This document shows positions 4,023-20,577 of a DNA stretch of 22,243 nucleotides, one piece after another. The position numbers and the translations under genes are program-made. Below the pieces are notes generated by a model that saw nothing but the letters and a program-made list of their open reading frames with translations, was not told the origin of the DNA and ran no database searches. Location of the stretch: positions 1 to 22,243 of IMG/VR virus record IMGVR_UViG_3300009480_000080, one strand, 5' to 3'. Position 1 is the stretch's first letter, and each line of letters starts with the position of its first letter. The DNA is from a virus.

Positions 4023-5948
4023 ATGGCTAATAGTGAAACTATCTCTAAAGCAAGCATTCGTGGATTAGATGATACTTATGTCCCTTCTGCAGGATATGGG
4101 ATAGACAGAGCCCTATTCACAAACGAAGTTGGTGTTAATCTAGATACCCTTTACAAGACCGTTCAGAAAACCCCCGAAGTTGTTGCATGTATTCAAGCAA
4201 TAACCGAGGACATAATGGCAGACGAGTGGAAATATATTGGTGGGAAAAAACCAATAGCAGATGTTGACGACTTTGCATTACAATCTAAGTTCTATAAAAT
4301 TCTAACAAATGCAATCTATGATTTGCTTATTACAGGTAATGCATATATTCTTAAATTAAGCGTCAGAGAGTCAGAAGTTAAATCCCTTTTTTCTAAATTA
4401 ACAAAGGGGCTGGCTAGTGATTTACAAGTTGGATTCAGAAAGAAAACAAGAGTTCTTATTCAAAACCTAACAAAGCCAAAGGATTTACAGGTTCTTAAAA
4501 GTTCTACAGTAAGCATAAACTATGATGAAACAGGAAAGGTAGAATCTTATGAACAGCTTGTTCAATCTGAAAGAAGAACATATCTACCTGAAGATATAAT
4601 CCATTTAAGCTTAGTTAATGTTGGGGGACAACCTTATGGTTTCTCTCCATTAGAACCATTACTATCAGATGTAGCAACTCTTATTTTAGCAAAAGAATAT
4701 GCAGGAAAATACTTTGAAAACGACGGGGTACCAAACTTCTTATTCAAGATGCCAGAAGATAATCCAGATTCTAGAAATTACACCTTACTTAAGAAAGAGT
4801 TAAAAGAACTTAAAAAGAAGGAAGAGAAGTTTAGAAATCTTGTTTTAACTGGAAAGGTAGATGTTGAACAATTACAAAAGTTCAATAAGGATATGGAATA
4901 TGCAAAATTAATTCAACACTTTACTCAAATAATTTTAATTGGTTATGGGGTTCCTTCTCATAGAATAAACTTCACATTAACAGATAAACAAGTTGGAAGC
5001 CAGATAAACCGTGCTTACGAAGGGTATTACAAAAAGATTTCATTTATGCAAAAGATTATAGAGATAATGCTTAACACAGAATTATTCCATAGATATTGGA
5101 AAGTAAAACTTAAATTTAATAGGTCTTATAAGATTGATGAAATGAGAGAAGCACAGATTATCCAAATTCTAACCCAAGTTGGAGCAGTAACAATAGAAGA
5201 GGCTAGGGATATGATGGGCCTAGACCCAGAGATTCCAAAAGGAACAATGCCAAATGCTACAGGAGATAATATGGGTATTGACTTTAATGCAGACCAAAGA
5301 ACACAACAAGGGCAAGATAATAATCCTAAAAGTCCAGATTCAAAAATGGATAACAAGACAAAAGACTTTGTAGAAGAATTAAGTTTATTAAAAAAGAACT
5401 ATGAAAATAAATTCATAGAGGAGAAAGTAATGTTAAGACAAGAACTTGAAAGAAAAAGGGAAGAATTAGACAAGGAGAAAGAAGGAATAAAGGAGCAAGG
5501 CAAATCTCAATTAGACCTTCAAAAAGCAAACCTAGAAAAAGAGTATATTGCTAGACTTAATGCGATTGAACTACAAATGAAAAAGGATTTGAATGTAGAA
5601 AAAGCAAAACTAATGAAAGAAACAAAACCACAAGTTATCAAGGTTAAATCTATGCCAGATAAAGACTTAAAGAAAATGTATAAACAGGTGATGTCTGGAG
5701 TTAAAAAGTTAAACAGTGAAAAAACATTTGGAGATGTTGTTGAAATAAACCATGTTCAGTTTGAGATAATCGTTGAGAGATATGGTGGTTTCGGAAAAGC
5801 AAAGGTTTTATACAAAGAAGACGACAACGAATTTAGACTTTACTTCAACGATGGTACATGGAAATACTGCACAATTTATTCTAAGAAGGGCCTGAATGTA
5901 GAAAGATTTAGGGTAGAAGTCTTACCATTTGCTTTGAGAATAGGTTAA
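4023..5948 (+). CDS. portal protein with long C-terminal extension
   Basis: A 641-residue protein. Residues 40-410 match the HK97/SPP1-type portal pattern: TVQKTPEVVACIQAITEDIM near the N terminus, LITGNAYILKL, YLPEDIIHLSLVNVGG, YGFSPLEPLL, the long stem helix region 250-300, and ILIGYGVPSHRINFT. Twelve copies form the ring at the capsid vertex through which DNA enters; it docks the terminase and the neck. Beyond the usual end at about 410, residues 440-540 are a highly charged predicted coiled coil, and residues 545-641 form an extra compact domain (DLKKMYKQVMSGVKKLN, ERYGGFGKAKVLYKED). A leaderless start at 4023 is supported by the TATA-like box. The C-terminal extension is unusual; it may act in scaffold or capsid contact, but that is inference. 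Confidence 0.95.
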   Translation: MANSETISKASIRGLDDTYVPSAGYGIDRALFTNEVGVNLDTLYKTVQKTPEVVACIQAITEDIMADEWKYIGGKKPIADVDDFALQSKFYKILTNAIYDLLITGNAYILKLSVRESEVKSLFSKLTKGLASDLQVGFRKKTRVLIQNLTKPKDLQVLKSSTVSINYDETGKVESYEQLVQSERRTYLPEDIIHLSLVNVGGQPYGFSPLEPLLSDVATLILAKEYAGKYFENDGVPNFLFKMPEDNPDSRNYTLLKKELKELKKKEEKFRNLVLTGKVDVEQLQKFNKDMEYAKLIQHFTQIILIGYGVPSHRINFTLTDKQVGSQINRAYEGYYKKISFMQKIIEIMLNTELFHRYWKVKLKFNRSYKIDEMREAQIIQILTQVGAVTIEEARDMMGLDPEIPKGTMPNATGDNMGIDFNADQRTQQGQDNNPKSPDSKMDNKTKDFVEELSLLKKNYENKFIEEKVMLRQELERKREELDKEKEGIKEQGKSQLDLQKANLEKEYIARLNAIELQMKKDLNVEKAKLMKETKPQVIKVKSMPDKDLKKMYKQVMSGVKKLNSEKTFGDVVEINHVQFEIIVERYGGFGKAKVLYKEDDNEFRLYFNDGTWKYCTIYSKKGLNVERFRVEVLPFALRIG

Positions 5949-5952
5949 AACC

Positions 5953-5982
5953 ATTTATATAAACTTTTAGCAACTTATAAAT
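5953..5982 (+). promoter_or_regulatory. promoter region of the protease-capsid unit, with palindrome copy 3
   Basis: Contains TTTATATAAA at 5954-5963, inside the 17-bp sequence shared with the portal promoter, and a TATA-like TTATAAAT at 5975-5982, 20 bp further on. Transcription would begin near 6005. A short inverted repeat CTTAA-TCGG-TTAAG (5998-6011) follows, just before the start codon at 6020. No Shine-Dalgarno is seen. Confidence 0.55.
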
Positions 5983-8073: not shown

Positions 8074-9135
8074 ATGGGAAAGTATAGTAACTCCTACAAC
8101 ATTTGGAAAACCCTAGGTTCAGATACTTATACAAAGGTAAGAACAGAGGTAGTAGGAACAGGCGATGGTTCTACAAGTGTATTCGATTTAGAACACGATA
8201 ATGTTATTTCTGGTTCTACAGAAGTAACTCAATCGGCAGCATTTCTCGCATCTAATTTTAATGGTTCTCCTTCAGAAAACCCCGTAGATTATTATGAGGC
8301 TGGGGGAATTTATAACCAAAAACCCTATTACTCTGGATTAACAGGAAGTAAATATATTTGGGCCAATCCTAGTGGCCTTTATTTAATAAGCCCAACAATT
8401 GGAAGCAGCACTTCTGCTTTATACAACTCTACAACAACAGGAAGCGTTCCTGGAGCATATCAATCTCTTGTTACAGGTACTTGTAGCGTTTCTATTTATA
8501 CTGGTTCTTCAGTTACTTTTGATTATGATGATGGAACATTCTCATTTGCTAGTGCTCCCCCATCAGGTAGCGAAATAACCGTTGATTATTCTTATACAAG
8601 TATCCCAGATTCTCAGGTTCAATCTCTTTTAAATCAATCAGATGAAGAGTTAGAAGACTTAACTGCAAGAAACTTTGATTTAACAACTACCTCTGAGTAC
8701 ATAGATGTAGAAGATAGACAAACAGTATTCTGGCTAAGGAATTATCCTGTTGTTAGCATGATTGGTCTTTCTGAAAATACTGCTAATTCAATTACAGATT
8801 CTCCCAGCTGGAGTGCATCAACAGAAGGAATAGGAAACGATTACCTTATGGATGCAAATGATAAGCTTGTTGGTACTTTTGAATATATTGATAATAAACC
8901 AATAAAAGGAAGTAAAAGATTATATGCTACATACTCCTATGGTTATGCTACAATCCCAGACATGGTTGTAGAACTTAACAATTTATTAACATTAAGGAAG
9001 ATGATTAATTCAACAATTTATAAGTCTATTTATACGGGGCAAGATGGATACTCTCCAGTTCGTCTTGATGAAATTGAGAATAGAATAAATGCCCTTGTAA
9101 CTAAGCTTAGAAAGCAAGGAATAAATAGGATATAA
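8074..9135 (+). CDS. head-tail connector with nested beta-domain insertions
   Basis: 353 residues, much longer than the usual 100-200 for a gp6-like connector. The connector core is at the C-terminal half: SQVQSLLNQSDEELEDLTAR, FWLRNYPVVSMIGL, YATYSYGYATIPDMVVELNN and helices to the end; it docks under the portal ring. Residues 26-175 form a beta domain of the GTGDGSTSVFDL ... DYDDGTFSFASAPPSGSEITV type seen in viral structural proteins. It is interrupted at about 52-145 by a second small Tyr/Trp-rich domain (GGIYNQKPYYSGLTGSKYIW ... GLYLISPTIG). No strong Shine-Dalgarno is next to the ATG; AGAGGATAAGGT lies about 20 bases upstream next to a small hairpin (TCCTC-GTA-GAGGA, 8036-8048). Confidence 0.8.
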   Translation: MGKYSNSYNIWKTLGSDTYTKVRTEVVGTGDGSTSVFDLEHDNVISGSTEVTQSAAFLASNFNGSPSENPVDYYEAGGIYNQKPYYSGLTGSKYIWANPSGLYLISPTIGSSTSALYNSTTTGSVPGAYQSLVTGTCSVSIYTGSSVTFDYDDGTFSFASAPPSGSEITVDYSYTSIPDSQVQSLLNQSDEELEDLTARNFDLTTTSEYIDVEDRQTVFWLRNYPVVSMIGLSENTANSITDSPSWSASTEGIGNDYLMDANDKLVGTFEYIDNKPIKGSKRLYATYSYGYATIPDMVVELNNLLTLRKMINSTIYKSIYTGQDGYSPVRLDEIENRINALVTKLRKQGINRI

Positions 9136-9151: not shown

Positions 9152-10090
9152 ATGAGAAGATTCGAAGAATACACATACAGTGAAGTGGACTCAGGAGCCC
9201 TACAAGTAGAGTCTGGTTTTAATATAGCCCAGTCTTTTTCTATTAATTTGGAATCCCCTGAAAAGTTTAAACCAAAGAAGCTTAGACTTTGGCTTAATAA
9301 ACAGAACACTCCAGACTATACCCTAACTGCTGCAATTCAAGTTGCTGGGTCAGATGGAACCCCCCAAGGAACAAATCTTTTTTCTGGGACAATTAATACA
9401 ACCCTCTTATCAAATGATGTTGCTTCTTATGATATTAATCTAAATCCAACAACCTATTCAGATGGCTATCTAACTGGTGGAAGTAACTATTCTATTGTAT
9501 TAACTGAAAATCAGACAAGCGGTACGGGGGTTGATTTTGCAAAGATAGTAATAAAATCAACGGGGGGGGTGCAATATCCTGGTTCTTTTTATTATAGCAC
9601 AGATGGAACCTCTACATGGGCCTTAGCCGACAACTACATAGGGTTCTTCGAAATTTGGGGATTGCCTGGAAATTCAGTGTTCTCTACTTCCTACGAGCAA
9701 GTTTATAACTTTCTAAATGACAATATTGTAGACCCAAGAGGAAGGTATAAGAAAAAGTGGATACACAATTCTATGCCTAATGTTAATTCAAAGGAGTTTA
9801 ATGGTTATCCCTTTATCACGGTTTCATTAGAACAAAATGAAGATAATCCCTCTTTTGATAAATACTTTTCTCAAAACAACTTTCGTGGGGTAATTACAGT
9901 TTACTCAGATGAAGCAACAGAAGTGGATTCTATTTGTGATGAGATAACAAACCTTTACAATGACGAGGATTACTTAACTTACTTTAAGTCTAAAAGTATT
10001 TTATCTTCACCATTTAGGTGGGATTTGGATTTAAAAGGAAAGAAAATAATGTGGAGAGAATTAACTTTTTCAATGAGGAGAAGACAATGA
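9152..10090 (+). CDS. tail terminator fused to N-terminal beta-sandwich
   Basis: 312 residues with two parts. Residues 22-170 (NIAQSFSINLESPEKFKPKK, TPQGTNLFSGTI, LTGGSNYSIVLTEN, GSFYYSTDGTSTW) follow the pattern of secreted adhesive beta-sandwich domains. Residues 178-312 (SYEQVYNFLNDNI, GYPFITVSLEQNED, FRGVITVYSDEATEVDSICD, ELTFSMRRR) resemble siphovirus tail terminator/completion proteins, which cap the tail tube and join it to the head. Position between connector and tail tube genes agrees. The role of the N-terminal domain is inferred as surface display. A G8 tract lies inside that domain at 9562-9569 (residues 137-140). Confidence 0.72.
   Translation: MRRFEEYTYSEVDSGALQVESGFNIAQSFSINLESPEKFKPKKLRLWLNKQNTPDYTLTAAIQVAGSDGTPQGTNLFSGTINTTLLSNDVASYDINLNPTTYSDGYLTGGSNYSIVLTENQTSGTGVDFAKIVIKSTGGVQYPGSFYYSTDGTSTWALADNYIGFFEIWGLPGNSVFSTSYEQVYNFLNDNIVDPRGRYKKKWIHNSMPNVNSKEFNGYPFITVSLEQNEDNPSFDKYFSQNNFRGVITVYSDEATEVDSICDEITNLYNDEDYLTYFKSKSILSSPFRWDLDLKGKKIMWRELTFSMRRRQ
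9562..9569 (+). repeat. G8 homopolymer in coding sequence
   Basis: Eight consecutive G in an AT-rich gene, encoding Thr-Gly-Gly-Val in the beta-sandwich of the tail terminator. Slippage here would truncate the protein. A second G8 lies at 14894-14901. Confidence 0.6.
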
Positions 10091-10509
10091 TAAAAATAGA
10101 TGTTGATGCAAAAAGTGTACTTAATAAAATAACAAAGATAATTAGTGGTTTGCCAAAGGTCTCTAGGAAAGTAGAAAACGACTCAGCAGACTTAGGAGTA
10201 AAGAAAGCAGTAAGCAAGGTGCCAAAAGATTCTGGTGCAACCGCATCTAGGATAATCAAAAGGCAGATTCCAAAGGCGGGATTTGAAGTAGTCTCAACAA
10301 CCCATCCAAGTGATTTAATAAATCGTAAGGGAGACCCAGGAAAAGATTTAGCACCATTACTAGAACGTGGGGAAGTAAGCAAACTTAACTGGGGTAAAAC
10401 CACAAGCCCATTAACAGGACAATTTCATTTTATTGAAGCAACAGCGATAGAATTAAGAACCGAGATACCCTCTTTATTAAATAAGGAGATTGAAATGTTA
10501 GTGAACTGA
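10087..10509 (+). CDS. HK97 gp10-like neck/tail component
   Basis: 140 residues from the ATG at 10087, which overlaps the upstream stop in an ATGA junction and follows AGGAG a few bases before. The frame extends upstream to 10018, but that part lies inside the previous gene. Pattern: N-terminal MIKIDVDAKSVLNKITKIIS helix, VPKDSGATASRIIKRQIPKA (the Asp-Ser-Gly turn before a strand), a central loop, and HFIEATAIELRTEIP near the end. This is the layout of HK97 gp10-type minor structural proteins, which sit at the head-tail joint or help in tail completion. Family resemblance is moderate; no catalytic function is expected. Confidence 0.7.
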   Translation: MIKIDVDAKSVLNKITKIISGLPKVSRKVENDSADLGVKKAVSKVPKDSGATASRIIKRQIPKAGFEVVSTTHPSDLINRKGDPGKDLAPLLERGEVSKLNWGKTTSPLTGQFHFIEATAIELRTEIPSLLNKEIEMLVN

Positions 10510-10539: not shown

Positions 10540-11103
10540 ATGGCATACGCAACAAAAGCATGGTACGAAGATTGTTATATTAGCGTGGCTCCTGTAGGCG
10601 GTTCTGAAGTACAAATGTGTACTAAGACTACAAATTTAAGTGTTTCTGGCGGAGAAAGAGATGTTGAAGCTATTAATACAATGTGTGGAGATGTTTCTAG
10701 AATAGGAAAAGAGACAGAAGTAGAAATTAGTATGGATGGAATCCCAGTATCAAACAGAGATTTTGATTGGATTTTTCATGGAACTAGTGCTACTGGAAAT
10801 ACAATAACAAGTTCAACTGCAACAAAGCATAGGGTAACTTTCCTTTGGACAAACCAAACTGGAGTTACTGCAGCTACACAAGCAATTAATACTGCAAGTG
10901 AAGCTTACAGACAAATCTATGCAGAAGCTTATTGTACAGGTTTAGAGTATAACATGGATGCTGAAGAACACTTAACTGCTACTATTAACTTTAAATTAGC
11001 ATTTGAAGATGCAGATGGAGTTATGAACTTCAAGAAAGAAGCTTGTGACACTACAAGTGCATTATCAGCTACACCAGCTTATACTACAACAACTAAATTT
11101 TAG
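10540..11103 (+). CDS. major tail tube protein
   Basis: 187 residues. The pattern CTKTTNLSVSGGERDVEAIN, then DVSRIGKETEVEISMDGIPV, then AYCTGLEYNMDAEEHLTATI fits a siphovirus tail tube protein: a beta-sandwich with a long loop, many copies stacking as hexameric rings. Position directly ahead of the chaperone pair and tape measure is the standard place. It starts at the ATG with a strong GGAGG site. The C-terminal tail is Thr/Ala-rich and probably flexible. No C-terminal Ig-like domain is present. Confidence 0.87.
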   Translation: MAYATKAWYEDCYISVAPVGGSEVQMCTKTTNLSVSGGERDVEAINTMCGDVSRIGKETEVEISMDGIPVSNRDFDWIFHGTSATGNTITSSTATKHRVTFLWTNQTGVTAATQAINTASEAYRQIYAEAYCTGLEYNMDAEEHLTATINFKLAFEDADGVMNFKKEACDTTSALSATPAYTTTTKF

Positions 11104-11112
11104 AGGTAATGA

Positions 11113-11382
11113 ATGAACTACATAACTGAGATAGATGGAGAATTGAAGAAAATAAACTTCAAGATTAATTCAATCCCAGTTGAACTTCTAAAAGAATTTA
11201 AACAATTTTGTAAAACTGAGTGTGGGGATGTCTATTGGGTTGGAATCTTTCAACTAATGAAGATTAAAAAACAATATGAACAAGCCCTCACTCATTTTAA
11301 TTTATTACAAACTCAAATTGATGAGTTAAAATCATTATCAAATAAACAGGTTAAGGAGGAACCCCAAACATTCGGAAAATGA
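11113..11382 (+). CDS. small tail-operon protein, RHH-like strand/helix plus coiled coil
   Basis: 89 residues between the tail tube and chaperone genes. GAGGT at 11103-11107 supports the ATG at 11113; the ATG at 11109 is in a frame that stops quickly. Residues 13-45 (KINFKINSIPVELLKEFKQF, CGDVYWVGIFQLM) have the strand-helix-turn-helix look of small ribbon-helix-helix-like proteins. Residues 48-80 are a probable coiled coil (KKQYEQALTHFNLLQTQIDE). Its stop overlaps the next start in ATGA. It may act in tail assembly because of location, but no specific function can be assigned. Confidence 0.7.
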   Translation: MNYITEIDGELKKINFKINSIPVELLKEFKQFCKTECGDVYWVGIFQLMKIKKQYEQALTHFNLLQTQIDELKSLSNKQVKEEPQTFGK

Positions 11383-11693
11383 GCAAACTATCAAACCTTT
11401 TAGGAAAGTCGAAGACATATACTGTGGGTGGAATCGAGATGGAATTGAAACCAAGAACAATGAAGGACTTGGACTTAATTCTAAGTTTGTCAAATGAATC
11501 AGAAAGAAGCGAAGCTTTGAAGAAACTAATAAGAGTTACATTATTAGATTCTGTTGAAGGTGCTACTGAAGAAGAAGTTGACCAAGTTGCATTCCAACAT
11601 TTCAAGGAATTGTCTGAGGCAATAGTTGATGTAAACGGACTAAAAGAAATGCAAGATGCAAGCACCAATAGAGATTCAAAAGTTACTGAATAG
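11379..11693 (+). CDS. tail assembly chaperone (gpG-like)
   Basis: 104 residues. GGIEMELKPRTMKDLDLILS near the N terminus and the following helical region (LKKLIRVTLLDSVEGATEEE, QHFKELSEAIVDVNGLKEMQ) match the layout of siphovirus tail assembly chaperones, encoded between tail tube and tape measure genes. The protein coats the tape measure during tail polymerisation and is not in the finished virion. A second ORF overlaps its end in the +1 frame, the usual place for a recoded G-T type fusion. AAGGAGGAA lies upstream inside the previous gene. Confidence 0.8.
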   Translation: MSKLSNLLGKSKTYTVGGIEMELKPRTMKDLDLILSLSNESERSEALKKLIRVTLLDSVEGATEEEVDQVAFQHFKELSEAIVDVNGLKEMQDASTNRDSKVTE

Positions 11694-11862
11694 AAAGGGA
11701 CATAAGAATCGTGAAGTTATTTTATTTTATAATTTAATGGTAGGGTTAAATCAACCCTATTCTTCGATTTTAGAGATGCCAATCCCAATGGCATTAAAGT
11801 TGAACGACCAATTAATCGAAGAACAAAAGAAACAAGATAAGGAGATGAAAAAGAAAAGATGA
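11656..11862 (+). CDS. tail assembly chaperone second frame (gpT-like extension)
   Basis: A 68-residue ORF in the +1 (or -2) frame relative to the upstream chaperone; the frame is open from 11644, so the overlap window is 11644-11693. HKNREVILFYNLMVGLNQPY and the following SSILEMPIPMALKLNDQLIE resemble the small helical T domain that binds the tape measure. In many siphoviruses the T domain is made only as a frameshift extension of G. A possible +1 slip site is TCA AAA GTT at 11676-11684, where tRNA-Lys could move from AAA to AAG. Alternatively the ATG at 11656 is used independently. It ends in an ATGA overlap with the tape measure gene. Confidence 0.72.
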   Translation: MQAPIEIQKLLNRKGHKNREVILFYNLMVGLNQPYSSILEMPIPMALKLNDQLIEEQKKQDKEMKKKR

Positions 11863-13820
11863 CAGAAGAAGTAAAGATTAAAATTACAATTGTAGACACA
11901 GAAGCATTAAAACAACTTGATGCTCTTAATTCTAAACTTAGTTCTCTTAGTTCAATTGCTAAATCTAGCATAGGAAACACGGGTAATGGTCTGGACCAAT
12001 TAAGTAAAAAAGTTATTTCCGTTAATAAGCAGTATGATGAAGCAGGAAGTAATATTGAAAAAATCACCAGTACCTATAACGACGCTGGTGAAGAAATAAA
12101 AAGGGTAACAGAGCAAATTAAAAGTTCTGCTAAGACTACCGAAAGGTATGGTTCTGTAAATGATGTTTTTTTTGGAAACCTTAAAACACACCTAAAGAAT
12201 TGGTCTATTGGGCAGAAGCAAGCACAGGCAGATGCAAAAGAACTCGGGGCAGCTATAGAGAAACGTTATAAATCTATGTTTGGCAATTTAAATAAAGACC
12301 TAAGGGGATATATTAAAAATTGGTCTATCGAGCAGAATAAAGCAAAAGAGGATTCTAAAGAATTAGGTAAATCTATAGAGAAACGTTATAAATCTATGTT
12401 TGGTTCTATTCAAGGTAATCTTAAAACATATGATGATTTTATAAGGAAATCTGAAGAATTAGGATTTTCAAGTAATAAACTTGCAGATTATATGAAGGCC
12501 GAAAATCTAGCATTTGATAAGAATGGTCAAGTTATAACAACTGTAACTGGCGAGCACAGAAAATATGGAGATGTCCTTGCCAACATGACCAAGGATTCTA
12601 GAAGATTTAAGATGGAGTTCTTATCAATTTTATTTACTGGTATGGCCTTAGATAGAGTATTTGGTAGCCTGGTAAGAAAACAATTTGAACTTTTTGGAGT
12701 TACAGACCTACTTGGGGCTGCGTGGACCCTTGTCCTTTTACCAATTATGGAGTTAATCACGCCCATTATATACCAGGTTCTAGAAGCGTTTATGAATCTA
12801 CCAGATGGATTAAAACTAGCAATAGGGGGGTTTGTGTTATTGGCTGCTGCAATCGGGAAGATTTTAACAACGGTTGGAATTGCAGTTTTAGGATTTCAAG
12901 GACTTGCAAAGATTTTTCCAACATTAGCAACCTTCGGAACAAAGGCTGTTGGGGCAATATCAAAGGGTTTTTCCACATTAGCTACATTTATGGTTCCAAT
13001 AATCGCAATTGTTTGGGGTATAATCGATGTTATTAACGGTTGGGGAAAGTCTACTAAGGATGTTGTTGCAGGAGTCATTAAGATACTTGCAGGACTTGCA
13101 GGGATTGTTGCATTAATTTTGGGGGCTCCAGCATTGCTTGTAGCAGCCATAGTTACAGCAGTAGTTTTAACAGTTTACATAATCCAAAGCAAATGGACTG
13201 AGATAAAAGAATTCTTTATAAATACCACAAAAAAGATGGGGGAGGCCTTTAAAGAAATTTGGAATGGAATTAAGAACTTTTTTGTTGCTCTTTGGAATGG
13301 ATTAAAGGATTTTATTAGTAACTCTGTCAATGCTATAAGACAAAAGTTTGTAAATGGTTTCACCTCAATAAAAGAATTCTTTTCTAATATATGGGAACAA
13401 ATAAAAGAGATATTTAGAAAGTCTGCTGAATTCATAATGTCCCTTCCTGGAAAGATAATAGAGGCCTTTAAAGGATTAGGAAAAAAGATTAAAGACGCTG
13501 TAACAGACCTTCTACCAGATTGGATGCTTAAATTATTTAAAAAAGGGACAAGCTGGCTTAGAAATGGAAGTGAGGCAGATGTTTTAGGTAGCTTCCAAAC
13601 TGGTGGTATTATCCCAGAAACAGGACCTTACTTATTACATAAAGGTGAAGAAGTTGTTAGAAGAAGCGAGGTAGGAACAAATACAACAAACTTTAGTCCA
13701 TCAATTACAGTAAATGTAAATGGTGGGGGAAAGGTCTCTGGAGATGATATTGCTAGAAGGGTATCGGAACAATTAAATAGGGAGTGGTCTTATAAATTTC
13801 AGAGGATGACACAAAGATAA
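11859..13820 (+). CDS. tape measure protein
   Basis: 653 residues. N-terminal helical region with a duplicated 40-residue unit (113-192), then long hydrophobic helices at about 280-445 (e.g. LKLAIGGFVLLAAAIGKILT, GIVALILGAPALLVAAIVTA), then Trp/Phe-spaced amphipathic repeats (FKEIWNGIKNFFVALWNGLK) and the C-terminal GGIIPETGPYLLHKGEEVV motif common in tape measures. The protein sets tail length and probably reaches the host membrane on DNA entry. By the known rule of about 1.5 angstrom per residue the tail would be roughly 100 nm. It starts in an ATGA overlap with the upstream chaperone frame. Confidence 0.93.
   Translation: MTEEVKIKITIVDTEALKQLDALNSKLSSLSSIAKSSIGNTGNGLDQLSKKVISVNKQYDEAGSNIEKITSTYNDAGEEIKRVTEQIKSSAKTTERYGSVNDVFFGNLKTHLKNWSIGQKQAQADAKELGAAIEKRYKSMFGNLNKDLRGYIKNWSIEQNKAKEDSKELGKSIEKRYKSMFGSIQGNLKTYDDFIRKSEELGFSSNKLADYMKAENLAFDKNGQVITTVTGEHRKYGDVLANMTKDSRRFKMEFLSILFTGMALDRVFGSLVRKQFELFGVTDLLGAAWTLVLLPIMELITPIIYQVLEAFMNLPDGLKLAIGGFVLLAAAIGKILTTVGIAVLGFQGLAKIFPTLATFGTKAVGAISKGFSTLATFMVPIIAIVWGIIDVINGWGKSTKDVVAGVIKILAGLAGIVALILGAPALLVAAIVTAVVLTVYIIQSKWTEIKEFFINTTKKMGEAFKEIWNGIKNFFVALWNGLKDFISNSVNAIRQKFVNGFTSIKEFFSNIWEQIKEIFRKSAEFIMSLPGKIIEAFKGLGKKIKDAVTDLLPDWMLKLFKKGTSWLRNGSEADVLGSFQTGGIIPETGPYLLHKGEEVVRRSEVGTNTTNFSPSITVNVNGGGKVSGDDIARRVSEQLNREWSYKFQRMTQR
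12195..12434 (+). repeat. tandem 120-bp duplication in the tape measure gene
   Basis: Two adjacent 40-residue units (residues 113-152 and 153-192) share KNWSI, KELG and IEKRYKSMFG. At DNA level 31 bases are identical (12253-12283 and 12373-12403, exactly 120 bp apart). This is an in-frame internal duplication, so it lengthens the protein without breaking it. Confidence 0.85.
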
Positions 13821-13821
13821 A

Positions 13822-14334
13822 ATGGTAAGCACAATAACTATCTCAAAAGCAATTCCTTCTAGTAATTGGTATTCTGGAAATGGTAGCACAACATTAACTC
13901 TTTACGCAGAAGAAATTACAGTAAACACAAAAAGAAGCCTTATTAAGATTCCAATTCCTCAATCATCAAATACACAAGATAATTCTGGTTCTGATACTGG
14001 AAGAAATTATGTTAAAGATTTAAAACGTGTAGAGGATACTATAAAAATTCGTGGATGGATTCCAGATACAACAGATTCAAGTGCTTGGACTAAGGCCTGG
14101 AAACTAAGGGCTATGTGTGCTGGGGGGAGTGTTGGAGGAGATAAAGGGGCAGTTACTTTAGTTATGGATAATATTACTTGCGGAACAAATACACAACAAG
14201 CATTCTTAGAAGAATTCACATTTATAGCTAAACGTGAAGGTACTGCAGATTCTTTAGATACTACTGGAAGCAACGCCAAGGGCATAGCAAGAGTCGAGTT
14301 TGACTCCGCATTCTACCTTGGAGATGCTAGATGA
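13822..14334 (+). CDS. distal tail protein (putative)
   Basis: 170 residues, mostly beta-strand by appearance: STTLTLYAEEITVNTKRSLI, then VEDTIKIRGWIPDTTDSSAW, KLRAMCAGG, GAVTLVMDNITCG, EEFTFIAKREGT and ARVEFDSAFYLG. Position between tape measure and hub is that of the distal tail (Dit) protein, which links tube to hub. The layout of a strand-rich fold with an early loop and a central short helix is compatible. There is no motif that proves the family, so the name rests mainly on gene order. It begins one base after the tape measure stop and ends in an ATGAG overlap with the hub gene. Confidence 0.6.
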   Translation: MVSTITISKAIPSSNWYSGNGSTTLTLYAEEITVNTKRSLIKIPIPQSSNTQDNSGSDTGRNYVKDLKRVEDTIKIRGWIPDTTDSSAWTKAWKLRAMCAGGSVGGDKGAVTLVMDNITCGTNTQQAFLEEFTFIAKREGTADSLDTTGSNAKGIARVEFDSAFYLGDAR

Positions 14335-17210
14335 GTTTAATTAGACATTATAAGCTTAATGATTCTGCTGGAGATTACATTGTAGTTGATAGTTCTATTT
14401 CTCAAAGTAATGGGACTGCTACAAGTACTTCTGCAGCAATGTCTGTTGAGGGTAAGATAAATAAAGCATTTGGTTTCCCAGGTACTTCAGTAATTGACCT
14501 AGGAAATCCTGCAGATTTAGATTTTGGAACGGGGAGTTTTTCTATTGCGTTATGGTCTAATGCCTTGGAAATAAGCCCCAATGCATCCTCTTTTGGTGAA
14601 TTAGAACCAGTACCACCATATGAAGGAGAATGGTTTGGTACAGTTAGGTATAGTGAAGTTTATGGTCCGAAGTATAATTTAGAAATTGGATTAATGGGCA
14701 CGGATGGAACCTGGACAGACCTTATAGGTCCACTTATTGATGGAACTAAGGGAACATGGCATCATTTTGCATTTGTTAAAGAGGGTACTTCTGGGAAATT
14801 TTATGGTGATGGTTTGCTTCTAAGCACTGGGGCCTTTCCAGCAGAATTGACCTCATCTACTGGAGGAATTAATATTGGTTCCGTAAATGCATTGGGGGGG
14901 GTAAACTTTCATGCAGATGGTCTAACAGATGATTTTAGAATATATAACCATGCACTTTCTTCAGAAGAGGTATCTCAGATTTATAATAACGGCGAAGGAA
15001 CAGAGGCAGGCGTAGGTGGTGGGTCAAATAATTCATTTTATGTAAAAGATTTAAGTGGGACCTGGAGACTATTTAGCCATTATGACTCTTTTAACATAAA
15101 GAAAAGACAAAACCAACCAAGTGAGTTTGAAGTAGTTATCTATGATATTCAAGATGCAGAGAAGGCTTACTTTAAGGAACAAGCAGAAGTCTTATTCTTT
15201 GCTAATGAGAAGATGATTCTAAAGGGAAGAATTCAAGCAATTGAGTATGGTTCTGAATTCAGAGTTATTGCAAGAGGATTTGGAATGGAATCAGTTTTAA
15301 TGGATAAAGAGTTCATAAAATCTGGAGATAAACGTGTTCAATATACAAATGAATCTGCTCAAACAATGGTTCAAGAGATTTTGAGTGAGAATGCAGATGG
15401 AAGTTCTCCTTGGACTATGACTCCAGATACTGGCGGGATTTTTAATTCAGATTATGGAGACATAAGTATGAGGTTTGAATATGCAAACAAGTTGAATTGC
15501 CTTGGAAGTGTAGCAAACGCAATAGACTATGAGTGGTGGGTTGACCAAACAAATTCAGATGATTATGATGAAGATTATTTTAATATGTCCGCATCAAGAG
15601 GAGGGACTAGTAGTGAACAGACATTTAGAATATCGGGAGTTAGTGAAAATGCTGTAAGAACTGCAAGAGAAAAAGATATAACAAACATGGCTAATTATGT
15701 AAGCGTCCTAGGATATGGAGATGGGATTAATCAGCTTAGTACAACTACATATGTTGCGAGTACACAAAGTAGTACTTTAAGTGTGGATGTTACAACTTCA
15801 GCAGGAACTAGTATAAGTCTTGTTGATGCTAGTGGTTTTGATGCAACAGGAAGTGCAAGAATGGCAGAAGAAGTTTTTACATATGCTGGAATTAACTCAA
15901 ATACCCTAACTGGTTGCGCTCGTGGTGCTTTGTCTACAACACCTGCAACACATAAAAAAGGGGTTTATGTTGAACAATACTTTACAGATACAAGTCCACA
16001 ATCTGGAAGTTCAATAAGTACCTATGGAAAAATGGAAAGCACTCAAGTTGATAGAACACTTTTAGACAGAGAAACTGCAGAGGTAATAGCTAGTAGATTC
16101 CTAATAGACCATAAAGACCCAATAGAAAGAATAACAATTACACCAGATGAACCAAGCACAGATGTTGCTAACTTAGAGATAGGAGATTTAGTTACGGTTA
16201 TAGACGACGAGGCTGGAATAAATGATTCTTATAGAATTGTAGGAATTGAATACAATGATGAGTATGGATATTTGACAATGAATATTGAGGTTGCAAATGT
16301 CACCTTACAATTCATTGAACAAATGCAGAAAGAAAAAGAAGCACAACAGAATTTACAGAAATATATGCAGGGTGCTACAAATATTTATGCTATAAATGAG
16401 GCAGAGAATTGTGATGCAACACATGACTTAAATATGCGGTTCTATCTCCCAGAGGATGCTGTTTCAGTTAATCAAGTTAAATTGAATTTTAAATTAAAGG
16501 ATTTCAGAGCCTATAATGGAACGGGTGCAACAACAGACAATGATGCAATAACTGCAATAGCTGGTACTGGAACATTTAACAGTGGGGCTACAATTTCCTC
16601 AAATACCTGGACTACTATTGCACAGATAACTACTGCAAATACGGACTGTGAAGGTGTTTTTTTGAATGGTGCAATGCAATTTGTTTCTATGGCCACAAGT
16701 ACAGATAATGGTTCTGGTTCATTTAGATGGAGAATTTATGACGGGACAAGCTATTACCCCAATAGTTCTGGTTATGATATGATTGCTGGAGGATACCTAT
16801 GGAATGATTCTCCTATGCTTAGTGGAACTATTGCACATTATATCCCAGGCAATAATAAAAACAAAACCTATTATTTACAAGTTCAATGGGATGGATGGTC
16901 TAGCGATATTGACTGGACAGTTAATGGGAGCCTAAGTTATAACACTTTCTCTAAACATACTCACGATTTGGATTTTGGAATCTATGAAGAAAATTTAACT
17001 AGCCCAAGTGTAGATGTTTCTGTTGGAGTCGAAGGTAGTGAGGTTGCCGTTGGTACATATACTAATGACCAAGAGGATTTGGATATAACAGAACAAGTCC
17101 TAGCAGTAGGTCCTGGAAACTGGGTGAACATTAAATTCGAAGCAAATAAACGTATGAGGATTGAAGCAGATGCCTATGTAAAGATTTTTATAGAGAGCAC
17201 TACTAATTAA
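14331..17210 (+). CDS. tail hub protein with N-terminal LamG domain
   Basis: 959 residues, multidomain. Residues 1-222 are a LamG/concanavalin-like sugar-binding domain (YKLNDSAGDYIVVDSS, GTGSFSIALWSN, GTWHHFAFVKEG, LTDDFRIYNHALSSEEVSQI). Residues 233-465 and 551-660 form a hub core (SHYDSFNIKKRQNQPSEFEV, AEVLFFANEKMILKGRIQAI, ETAEVIASRFLIDH, LEIGDLVTVIDDEAGINDSY). A small beta domain at 485-550 (TSISLVDASGFDATGSARMA, TLTGCARGALSTTPATH) interrupts the core. After a helix at 660-690, residues 695-959 form a further beta-rich region with HTHDLDFGIYEE. The hub closes the tail tip and starts infection. A G8 tract lies in the LamG part. Confidence 0.85.
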   Translation: MSLIRHYKLNDSAGDYIVVDSSISQSNGTATSTSAAMSVEGKINKAFGFPGTSVIDLGNPADLDFGTGSFSIALWSNALEISPNASSFGELEPVPPYEGEWFGTVRYSEVYGPKYNLEIGLMGTDGTWTDLIGPLIDGTKGTWHHFAFVKEGTSGKFYGDGLLLSTGAFPAELTSSTGGINIGSVNALGGVNFHADGLTDDFRIYNHALSSEEVSQIYNNGEGTEAGVGGGSNNSFYVKDLSGTWRLFSHYDSFNIKKRQNQPSEFEVVIYDIQDAEKAYFKEQAEVLFFANEKMILKGRIQAIEYGSEFRVIARGFGMESVLMDKEFIKSGDKRVQYTNESAQTMVQEILSENADGSSPWTMTPDTGGIFNSDYGDISMRFEYANKLNCLGSVANAIDYEWWVDQTNSDDYDEDYFNMSASRGGTSSEQTFRISGVSENAVRTAREKDITNMANYVSVLGYGDGINQLSTTTYVASTQSSTLSVDVTTSAGTSISLVDASGFDATGSARMAEEVFTYAGINSNTLTGCARGALSTTPATHKKGVYVEQYFTDTSPQSGSSISTYGKMESTQVDRTLLDRETAEVIASRFLIDHKDPIERITITPDEPSTDVANLEIGDLVTVIDDEAGINDSYRIVGIEYNDEYGYLTMNIEVANVTLQFIEQMQKEKEAQQNLQKYMQGATNIYAINEAENCDATHDLNMRFYLPEDAVSVNQVKLNFKLKDFRAYNGTGATTDNDAITAIAGTGTFNSGATISSNTWTTIAQITTANTDCEGVFLNGAMQFVSMATSTDNGSGSFRWRIYDGTSYYPNSSGYDMIAGGYLWNDSPMLSGTIAHYIPGNNKNKTYYLQVQWDGWSSDIDWTVNGSLSYNTFSKHTHDLDFGIYEENLTSPSVDVSVGVEGSEVAVGTYTNDQEDLDITEQVLAVGPGNWVNIKFEANKRMRIEADAYVKIFIESTTN
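14894..14901 (+). repeat. G8 homopolymer in LamG domain
   Basis: Eight consecutive G encoding the end of Leu plus Gly-Gly-Val near residues 188-191 of the hub protein. Same length and same Gly-Gly-Val coding as the tract at 9562-9569. Confidence 0.6.
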
Positions 17211-18339: not shown

Positions 18340-18742
18340 GTTAAACATTCGAATAAAAATGGTCCTAAGAGAAGCTAAAGGAGATAGAGAATATGATAAG
18401 TTCACTACTGGAAGTTCTGGTGAAACAGCAGTTAGAACCGTATTAGATTCTGCAATAAGTGTTGAATTAACTAGTTCTGATATTCAAATAGGGGCTGTTG
18501 AGATTAAAGACGCTACTAGCTCTGATAGGGCCGTAGTAAGTTCAGATGGAGCCATTAAGGTGTTTGACCACATAGCAAATAGCTTAGTTCCAAACGAATA
18601 CGACTATATAGGCTTACTTTATTCTGGTTCAAACCTTACACAGGCTACATATAAATCTGGAGGCGTTGGTGGAACCACAGTTTCTACATTAGAGTTAGCC
18701 TATGATACTTCTGGAAACATTACCTCTGTTACTAAAGTATGA
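18320..18742 (+). CDS. tail fibre-associated structural protein
   Basis: 140 residues if the GTG at 18320 is used. An in-frame ATG at 18359 (residue 14) is an alternative, but SDTLNIRIK ahead of it looks like genuine protein and the upstream promoter suits a leaderless GTG start. The N-terminal [15 protein letters not shown] strand is reminiscent of phage tail proteins that precede fibres. The middle and C-terminal parts are beta-rich ([56 protein letters not shown]). It ends in an ATGA overlap with the fibre gene. Probably a fibre connector or short fibre; family not recognised. Confidence 0.68.
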
Positions 18743-20577
18743 AATTAGTTTTTAATCCATTAACAGGGAAGTTTGATTATGTTAATGAAACCAGTGGGGC
18801 AAGTACCTCAACTTTTCTTGACCTTAGCGATACCCCTTCTAGTTATTCTGGCCAAGCAGATAAGGTCCTGGCTGTAAATCATGGAGAAAGTGCAGTAGAA
18901 TTTATTAATACACCTAGTGAACCAACATATCCCTCTCAGTCTGGAATTGCTGTTTGGGATGCTGGGGGTAGTCAGTGGAACATATCTATAGCTGGGAACT
19001 CAGATGAATTCGTTAAAGGAGATGGAAGTTTAGATTCTAAGGCTTATGTCCCCTATAGTGGTGCCACAACTTCTGTTAATCTTGGAGCATATAACCTTTC
19101 TGCATCAACAATTACTGCAAGTACATTCAACGTTGGTGGGAACTATGCCTTCCCAACAACAGATGGTTCAAACGGTTATATCTTAAAAACAAATGGTTCT
19201 GGAGATGTTACTTGGCAACCAGACAATAGCGGAGGTTCTTCAAGCCCATTAACAACAAAGGGAGACCTCTATACCTATGATACTGCTGGTACAAGATTTC
19301 CACTAGGAACAAATGGTTATATTTTAAGTGTTGATACTTCTACTGCTACAGGTTTAAAATGGGTTCAGAATAGTAGTGGTACCTCTGGGGCAAGTGTTTC
19401 TTTTGGAACTGAAGGACAAATTCCTTATACTAATGCTACAACAGATGATTTTGATTATAGTGATTTTACTTTTGACGGAAATACAGTTCAATTGCCTGCT
19501 GGAACTACCTCTGCAGCACCCTTAAAGTTTCAAAACGGAACAAAACTAATTACCTCAGAAACAGGTGCGATGGAGTTTGAAACAGATAACCTTTATTTTA
19601 CTATTTCAACTGGGGCAACAGAGCAGTATTCAAGTCAATATCCACCAAGTCAAAATTCAACATATGTTAAGGCAACAAGTACTTATTCAACAAGTTTTTA
19701 TCCTTATTATGCTACAGACCCCACAAAAACATTAATTGGAACTGCTAATGGCAATGCTTGGGTAGCTAGTGCTCCAACTAATCAACGCTTTCATATAGAC
19801 CTGGGTTCTTCCAAAGTAGTTAAAAGAATTTATTATGAGAATTATCATAATAATGGTTCTTATACTAATGGTGGAGCAAAAGCATTTACTTTTTGGGGGT
19901 CTAATGACCCTGATGCCTTTGCAGAATTAACTTATGGAACAGATACTGGCTGGACCCAATTATCTACCGTTGTGGATGAATTTGAACAACACGTTGCAAG
20001 TAATGTTGCGGACCCAAAGTATATTACTGTTACTAATTCAACATCGTATAGATATTATGCAGTTAAAATTGCTAATAATTGGGGTGATGGAACAGTGATG
20101 GCTCTAAGAAGAATCGAATTACAGACTGAGAATACAATAGCTAGAAAGAATATTTTGTTAGATGACGGAACACAATTAACTTCCTTGCGTGTACCAATAG
20201 TTACAACAAATGGAAGATTAACAGATAATGCAGAGTTTACATTCGACGGAACAACCTTAAGTTCTCCAAAAATAATTGCAACTACTTCAATAGACTTAGA
20301 AGATAATGTGCCAATTAATCTAGGAACAGGAACCGACAGTGTATTAACCTTTGACGGAACCGATACACTCTTGACTACTGCTGGAGATTTAAAAGTAATA
20401 GCCGATGGAAAGGCTTGGCTTAGGGGTAGCGTTGTTCTAGATGCTCCTGCCTCTGCACCTACACTTAGCGATAACGGGACGATAAGTTTTAGTCTTGACG
20501 AATCGGGGAATAATTTAGTGGTTACAGTTAAATATAGTGATGGAACTGAGAAATCAGGTACTGTTGCTCTTACATAA
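18739..20577 (+). CDS. receptor-binding tail fibre with F5/8-type (discoidin-like) domain
   Basis: 612 residues. The N terminus ([38 protein letters not shown]) is the usual attachment end of such fibres. Shaft modules follow: [40 protein letters not shown], then [20 protein letters not shown]. Residues 296-465 form a discoidin/F5/8C-like carbohydrate-binding beta-sandwich ([58 protein letters not shown]). It sits within a fibre module whose two halves ([11 protein letters not shown] and [20 protein letters not shown]) flank it. The C terminus ([20 protein letters not shown]) ends the fibre. Most likely the host-recognition protein. Confidence 0.85.

Follow-up and report, generated by a model that had tools for sequence, protein, structure and literature searches.

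In the IMG/VR virus record IMGVR_UViG_3300009480_000080, analysed here from position 1 to 22,243 (this stretch of 22,243 nucleotides is referred to as the window), a single open frame encodes a protein that sequence comparison and structural modelling identify as a siphoviral tail terminator with an additional beta-sandwich-type domain fused to its N-terminus. This protein anatomy, a terminator plus an extra domain, is well supported, and the extra domain is homologous at the sequence level to modules that related viruses carry on their tail-tip proteins. On balance we favour the view that a sandwich module of tail-tip type has been fused in frame to an otherwise normal siphoviral terminator, where it most likely faces outwards and is weakly adhesive. 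The features discussed below are listed in Table 1.

Table 1. Neck and tail features of the window (positions in the window; aa, amino acids)
Feature	Position	Strand	Evidence
Head-tail connector (adaptor-like), 353 aa, with insertion	8074..9135	+	Alignments with relatives, 42-56% identity
Insertion of ~85 residues in a connector loop (approximate limits)	8227..8511	+	Absent from 14 of 15 relatives
Tail terminator with N-terminal beta-sandwich domain, 312 aa	9152..10090	+	Single open frame
Extra N-terminal domain, residues 1-168, choice_anch_R-like beta-sandwich	9152..9655	+	Window-excluded profile, pairwise comparison with L044, G022 match, AlphaFold strands
Tail terminator domain, residues 169-312, gpU/DUF3168-like	9656..10087	+	15 relatives, PHROG families, Foldseek
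Neck1/tail completion protein (phrog_5)	10087..10509	+	PHROG match, E = 3e-5
Probable major tail tube protein	10540..11103	+	Kept in 14 of 15 relatives searched; gene order; weak phrog_238 match
Tail-tip (Tal-like) protein, 959 aa, N-terminal LamG-type module	14331..17210	+	Laminin_G_3, E = 3.6e-15; weak Prophage_tail

Judged by homology, the frame is not a chance ORF, because both of its parts have relatives elsewhere. Its C-terminal 144 residues (169-312) align end to end, at 39-53% identity, with a free-standing gene in 15 distinct related IMG/VR viruses (17 contigs), and its residues 7-172 are matched by a profile of tail-tip domains from which this virus had been left out (E = 1.1e-5) as well as by a protein search of the relatives' records (E = 4.5e-5). 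The ATG lies 16 nt downstream of the connector stop and has AAGGT on its 5' side. A preliminary description of this DNA had proposed a beta-sandwich fused to the tail terminator, and this is borne out by the one frame and by the homology found for each half; all three peptides it quoted lie within the single stop-free frame. The span it gave, 9215-9661, corresponds to residues 22-170 and falls inside the extra domain, the complete domain being residues 1-168.

The terminator half was recognized through its relatives, its model and its gene neighbourhood. Although this virus's domain alone matches the PHROG terminator families only marginally (0.23), members of the alignment scanned singly match phrog_176 (4.6e-6), phrog_78 (1.9e-4) and phrog_347 (4.1e-4), with up to 10 of the 15 members doing so. 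In an AlphaFold monomer model built with a 16-row alignment, the terminator half is predicted mostly in blocks of 70-91 pLDDT, in the order helix, two strands, helix, strands. Foldseek searches of the PDB with the C-terminal domain returned lambda gpU, both as crystal and as in situ structure, with probability 1.00 (3fzb and 8iyd; E 2.6e-4 to 2e-3, TM by target 0.49-0.59), and further matches, several of them cryo-EM neck terminators, came from the necks of Chi, SaPI1, NF5, Sf14 and phiXacm and from a tail chain of HFTV1. In the relatives the gene always lies directly 3' of the connector, and the order on to the tail-tube gene is identical wherever it can be read, so that the position between connector and tail tube is common to this virus and its relatives. 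The same PHROG and fold matches rule out a stopper, an identity that gene position could also have suggested. Residues 169-312 are thus, from sequence and model, a siphoviral tail terminator of gpU/DUF3168-like type, and the possibility raised earlier that the C-terminal half might not be a terminator is answered by PHROG families, fold matches and synteny.

The relatives also show where the added part begins. The free-standing terminator has 141-150 aa including the start in 14 of the 15 distinct relatives; in the remaining one, L011 (7998-8339), it ends at 113 aa, also without an extension, a stop that may be a sequencing error or a real truncation. The end of the module in the 312-aa protein coincides exactly with the relatives' terminator start codon. 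A search for the same fusion in metagenomic relatives had been proposed; none of the 15 carries an N-terminal extension on the terminator gene, which indicates that the sandwich domain is dispensable for the core function.

The origin of residues 1-168 is more distant. Residues 1-172 belong to no family in Pfam, NCBIfam or PHROGs, including the named Ig-like and CBM families of these collections, and have no match in PDB sequences or in phage or plasmid records; direct NF041539 and Pfam searches with the domain were negative, and an exact-peptide-pattern search of IMG/VR with the whole protein and with the N-terminal domain returned nothing. Matches by tblastn to a cyanophage fibre and a Streptomyces plasmid were rejected as chance hits after inspection, and a scan with the motif YYS.DG..TW retrieved non-homologous proteins, mostly with Asp-box-like repeats. 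The link came from the relatives: the protein search matched residues 5-172, at 26% identity, in G022 (the record that contains locus L044), the match lying at the start of an open frame of 1316 residues, the tail-tip gene by position. The profile mentioned above, built from the tail-tip-protein domains of L044, L009 and G015, aligned its positions 4-161 of 168; run across the open frames of all collected loci, it yielded no further new copy below 0.01. In comparisons with shuffled sequences the N-terminal domain and the L044 domain gave z = 9.5, with none of 500 shuffles reaching the score, against 12.4 for L044 with L009 and 3.8 for this virus's domain with G015; L012 showed no link to the others by this measure. 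Single-sequence hhalign was dropped since it could not relate two known choice_anch_R domains.

These relatives connect the domain to a curated family. The tail-tip domains of L009 and L012 and the domain of a similar protein in G015 match NF041539 (choice_anch_R) at 1.4e-7, 1.0e-9 and 2.4e-10, the L009 domain falling just under the cut-off of that model and the G015 domain above it. We therefore assign the N-terminal domain, by sequence, to a choice_anch_R-like superfamily and not as a certified member, the cut-off of the curated model not being reached. AlphaFold predicts ten short strands in a beta-sandwich-like pattern at moderate confidence (pLDDT ~46-75 for the bulk of the domain, falling below 50 in residues 1-26 and 160-177); a single-sequence model was useless (mean pLDDT 37.5). 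The beta-sandwich reading of the N-terminal part thus holds, as an extra beta-sandwich-type domain, on strands and profile homology. Of the two checks suggested for it, structure prediction gave the strands, whereas the domain search gave no family directly. The label 'secreted-type' agrees with a composition of 43% S/T/N/Q/G, and this composition is its whole basis.

The neighbouring connector carries an addition of its own. The insertion, which had also been pointed out in the preliminary description, is confirmed by the alignments as a second addition to the neck: the connectors of 14 relatives have 256-271 residues and lack it. L044 has an insertion of ~100 residues in the same loop of its connector (4865-5980), either independent or shared; the two do not resemble each other significantly (46 of 1000 shuffles score as well), and homology is not claimed. 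Farther downstream, the probable tail tube protein has the length seen in relatives, with no added domain. Ahead of the tape measure, two short frames overlap (11379-11862); they are possibly tail assembly chaperones linked via a programmed frameshift. The genes in tape-measure position are longest in this virus (11859-13820, 653 aa) and L044 (8190-10250, 686 aa), those of the other relatives compared having 378-575 aa, which suggests longer tails in these two. An open frame between the capsid and connector genes of L009 (6667-7212) was considered as a decoration protein and rejected, as it is HNH-like and matches HNH nuclease.

A four-gene tree places L044 as the sister of this virus (support 0.998). 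In the sister the homologous module opens the tail-tip protein; the connector insertion is present and the terminator fusion is absent. In this virus the LamG module of the 959-aa tail-tip protein occupies the site at which relatives (L009, L012, L044) have a module of choice_anch_R type. Across the relatives the tail-tip N-terminus bears choice_anch_R, LamG plus choice_anch_R, or no such match, and so appears as a hot spot of module swapping. Positions 18739-20577 encode a putative fibre protein of 612 aa in which a DUF5000/F5_F8-type (discoidin-like) domain is recognized, and two glycosyltransferase-like open frames were noted by eye before the large terminase (1-2279).

The window itself contains no host marker, and provirus searches for the host found no provirus. 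An archaeal host is likely, since close relatives encode a group II chaperonin: Cpn60_TCP1 genes are present in G005 and G022 (L045, 9270-10691; L050, 4665-6077, minus strand), the G005 copy is closest by sequence to thermosomes and other group II chaperonins, and tailed viruses that infect marine group II archaea are known to carry thermosome genes (PMC5332604). Both relatives also encode a protein with a Ku domain close to an ATP-dependent DNA ligase (L045, 3103-5276, minus strand; L050, 8062-10372), possibly a viral end-joining pair, and RuvB-like AAA+ ATPases occur in G005 and G002 (L045, 1946-3115, and L046, 11492-12661, both on the minus strand).

How the fusion may work can be outlined from these parts. 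On the favoured view, a mobile choice_anch_R-like module has been joined in frame to the N-terminus of the terminator; in related viruses, modules of this kind lie within the tail-tip (Tal) protein or at its N-terminus. In described siphophages terminators are hexamers and adaptors dodecamers (PMC11313276, PMC10276861), and from this stoichiometry we infer six modules and twelve inserted loops here. A hexameric terminator ring, with the connector on one side and the first tail-tube ring on the other, would thus surround the upper end of the tail with about six sandwich domains, adjoining a dodecameric connector with its own inserted loop domains. Most likely facing outwards, the added domains could bind material of the host surface (S-layer or glycan) in a weak, multivalent manner, which would help to keep the virion on, or close to, the cell as its tail tip searches for the receptor. 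Weak adhesion to the host surface is favoured on two grounds: the virions of Douge and of 936 phages carry comparable sandwich domains that bind glycans of the host (PMC13033339, PMC6669499), and tail proteins of this virus also bear modules of LamG and DUF5000/F5_F8 type. Counting against adhesion, a virion standing on its tail tip would hold a neck domain well away from the cell; counting against the favoured view as a whole, only a single metagenomic contig shows the fusion. A broader and more tentative reading is that host-binding modules swap between tail tip and neck, the terminator and connector rings forming a second, head-proximal adhesive collar.

The main rival to an adhesive role is a structural one, which we consider rather unlikely: the added domain and the connector insertion would together stabilize the head-tail joint or touch the capsid vertex. 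Two added domains on neighbouring rings of one neck agree with this, and it ranks as the main rival because the Ig-like domain of the R4C adaptor has been interpreted as an element of capsid attachment or stability and not of adsorption (PMC10276861). No stopper gene is recognized between connector and terminator in this virus or elsewhere in the clade, as is also the case in T5 (PMC11313276). However, all 15 relatives, whose gene order is the same, assemble with a terminator that lacks the module, and 14 of them lack the insertion too; L044 has the insertion without the fusion, and the nearest kin of the module are tail-tip modules and not neck parts.

The remaining explanations have less in their favour. 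That the module arrived by recent illegitimate recombination and is tolerated but unused would agree with a fusion present in one of 16 contigs and joined exactly at the ancestral terminator start, and it appears improbable given the intact frame with its own ribosome-binding site. The ~24-26% identity between the modules of this virus and L044, both of them in open frames, likewise indicates that the domain is old, although this does not date the fusion. Alternatively, a bare terminator might also be made from the weak internal starts TTG 9662 and GTG 9677, both at the old start position, such that the domain would occupy only some positions of a mixed ring; partial decoration is known, through a frameshift, from SPP1 gp17.1* (PMC9022992), and yet neither start has a ribosome-binding site at the proper distance, which leaves this improbable too. 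An assembly chimera, in which the module of another gene or virus was misjoined to the terminator, is scarcely credible in spite of the single contig, as the two parts join in frame precisely at the domain boundary, the start is normal and closely follows the connector stop, the tail-tip gene of this virus is complete and begins with another module, and the connector shows the alteration also seen in the sister.

Under the favoured reading, of a tail-tip-type module fused to a normal terminator, even a low-copy ring, the one that completes tail assembly, can accept an N-terminal addition of 168 residues, and modules of host-surface type are suggested to be movable to the particle neck. The sister pair, with the module on the tail tip in L044 and on the terminator here, offers a direct comparison of whether module position matters for adsorption. 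The practical consequence is modest, namely one more permissive fusion site in tailed viruses.

Compared with known terminators, lambda gpU, T5 p142 and DUF3168 proteins such as that of SaPI1 (9mu3_D) are alike in fold (probability 1.00), in the order helix-strand-strand-helix-strands and in their position between connector and tail tube; however, they are bare proteins of ~125-160 aa, whereas the terminator of this virus has 168 additional N-terminal residues. Terminators of myophages and contractile machines are larger and have additional domains, for example contacting the sheath (PMC11784142). The curated choice_anch_R family (NF041539) has a similar length (155 positions) and profile-level homology via the relatives' tail-tip domains, although the model itself is not reached by this virus's domain. 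Catalogues of virion display domains cover capsids, tail tubes, fibres, baseplates and collars of the neck (PMC9022992, PMC6669499), and a review of virion Ig-like domains distinguishes five classes (fibre, baseplate, tail tube, major capsid and Hoc), with the terminator not among them (PMC9022992). Among archaeal tailed viruses, HFTV1, already met in the fold matches, has a glycan-binding-like domain away from the tail tip; it sits on the capsid turrets, and the accessible part of that account mentions no decoration of the neck or terminator (PMC12494034). The roseophage R4C likewise has an extra sandwich-type domain at the periphery of a siphoviral neck ring, but there an Ig-like domain of another family is placed on the adaptor, comparable to the connector insertion here, and is read in terms of stability (PMC10276861). 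Lactococcal 936 phages also display host-binding modules at several virion sites, carbohydrate-binding modules being found on the neck passage structure, the TpeX-extended tail tube and the evolved Dit; their neck module is a separate large collar protein, with none described on the terminator, whereas here the added domain is on the terminator (PMC6669499). The suggestion in the preliminary description that this decoration strategy was not known is therefore too strong in general, given the R4C adaptor and the 936 neck passage structures, and appears to hold only for the attachment to a siphoviral terminator, since no described terminator with such a domain was found in open PMC papers. Decorated neck proteins are already known, and what appears new here is the sandwich module on a siphoviral terminator.
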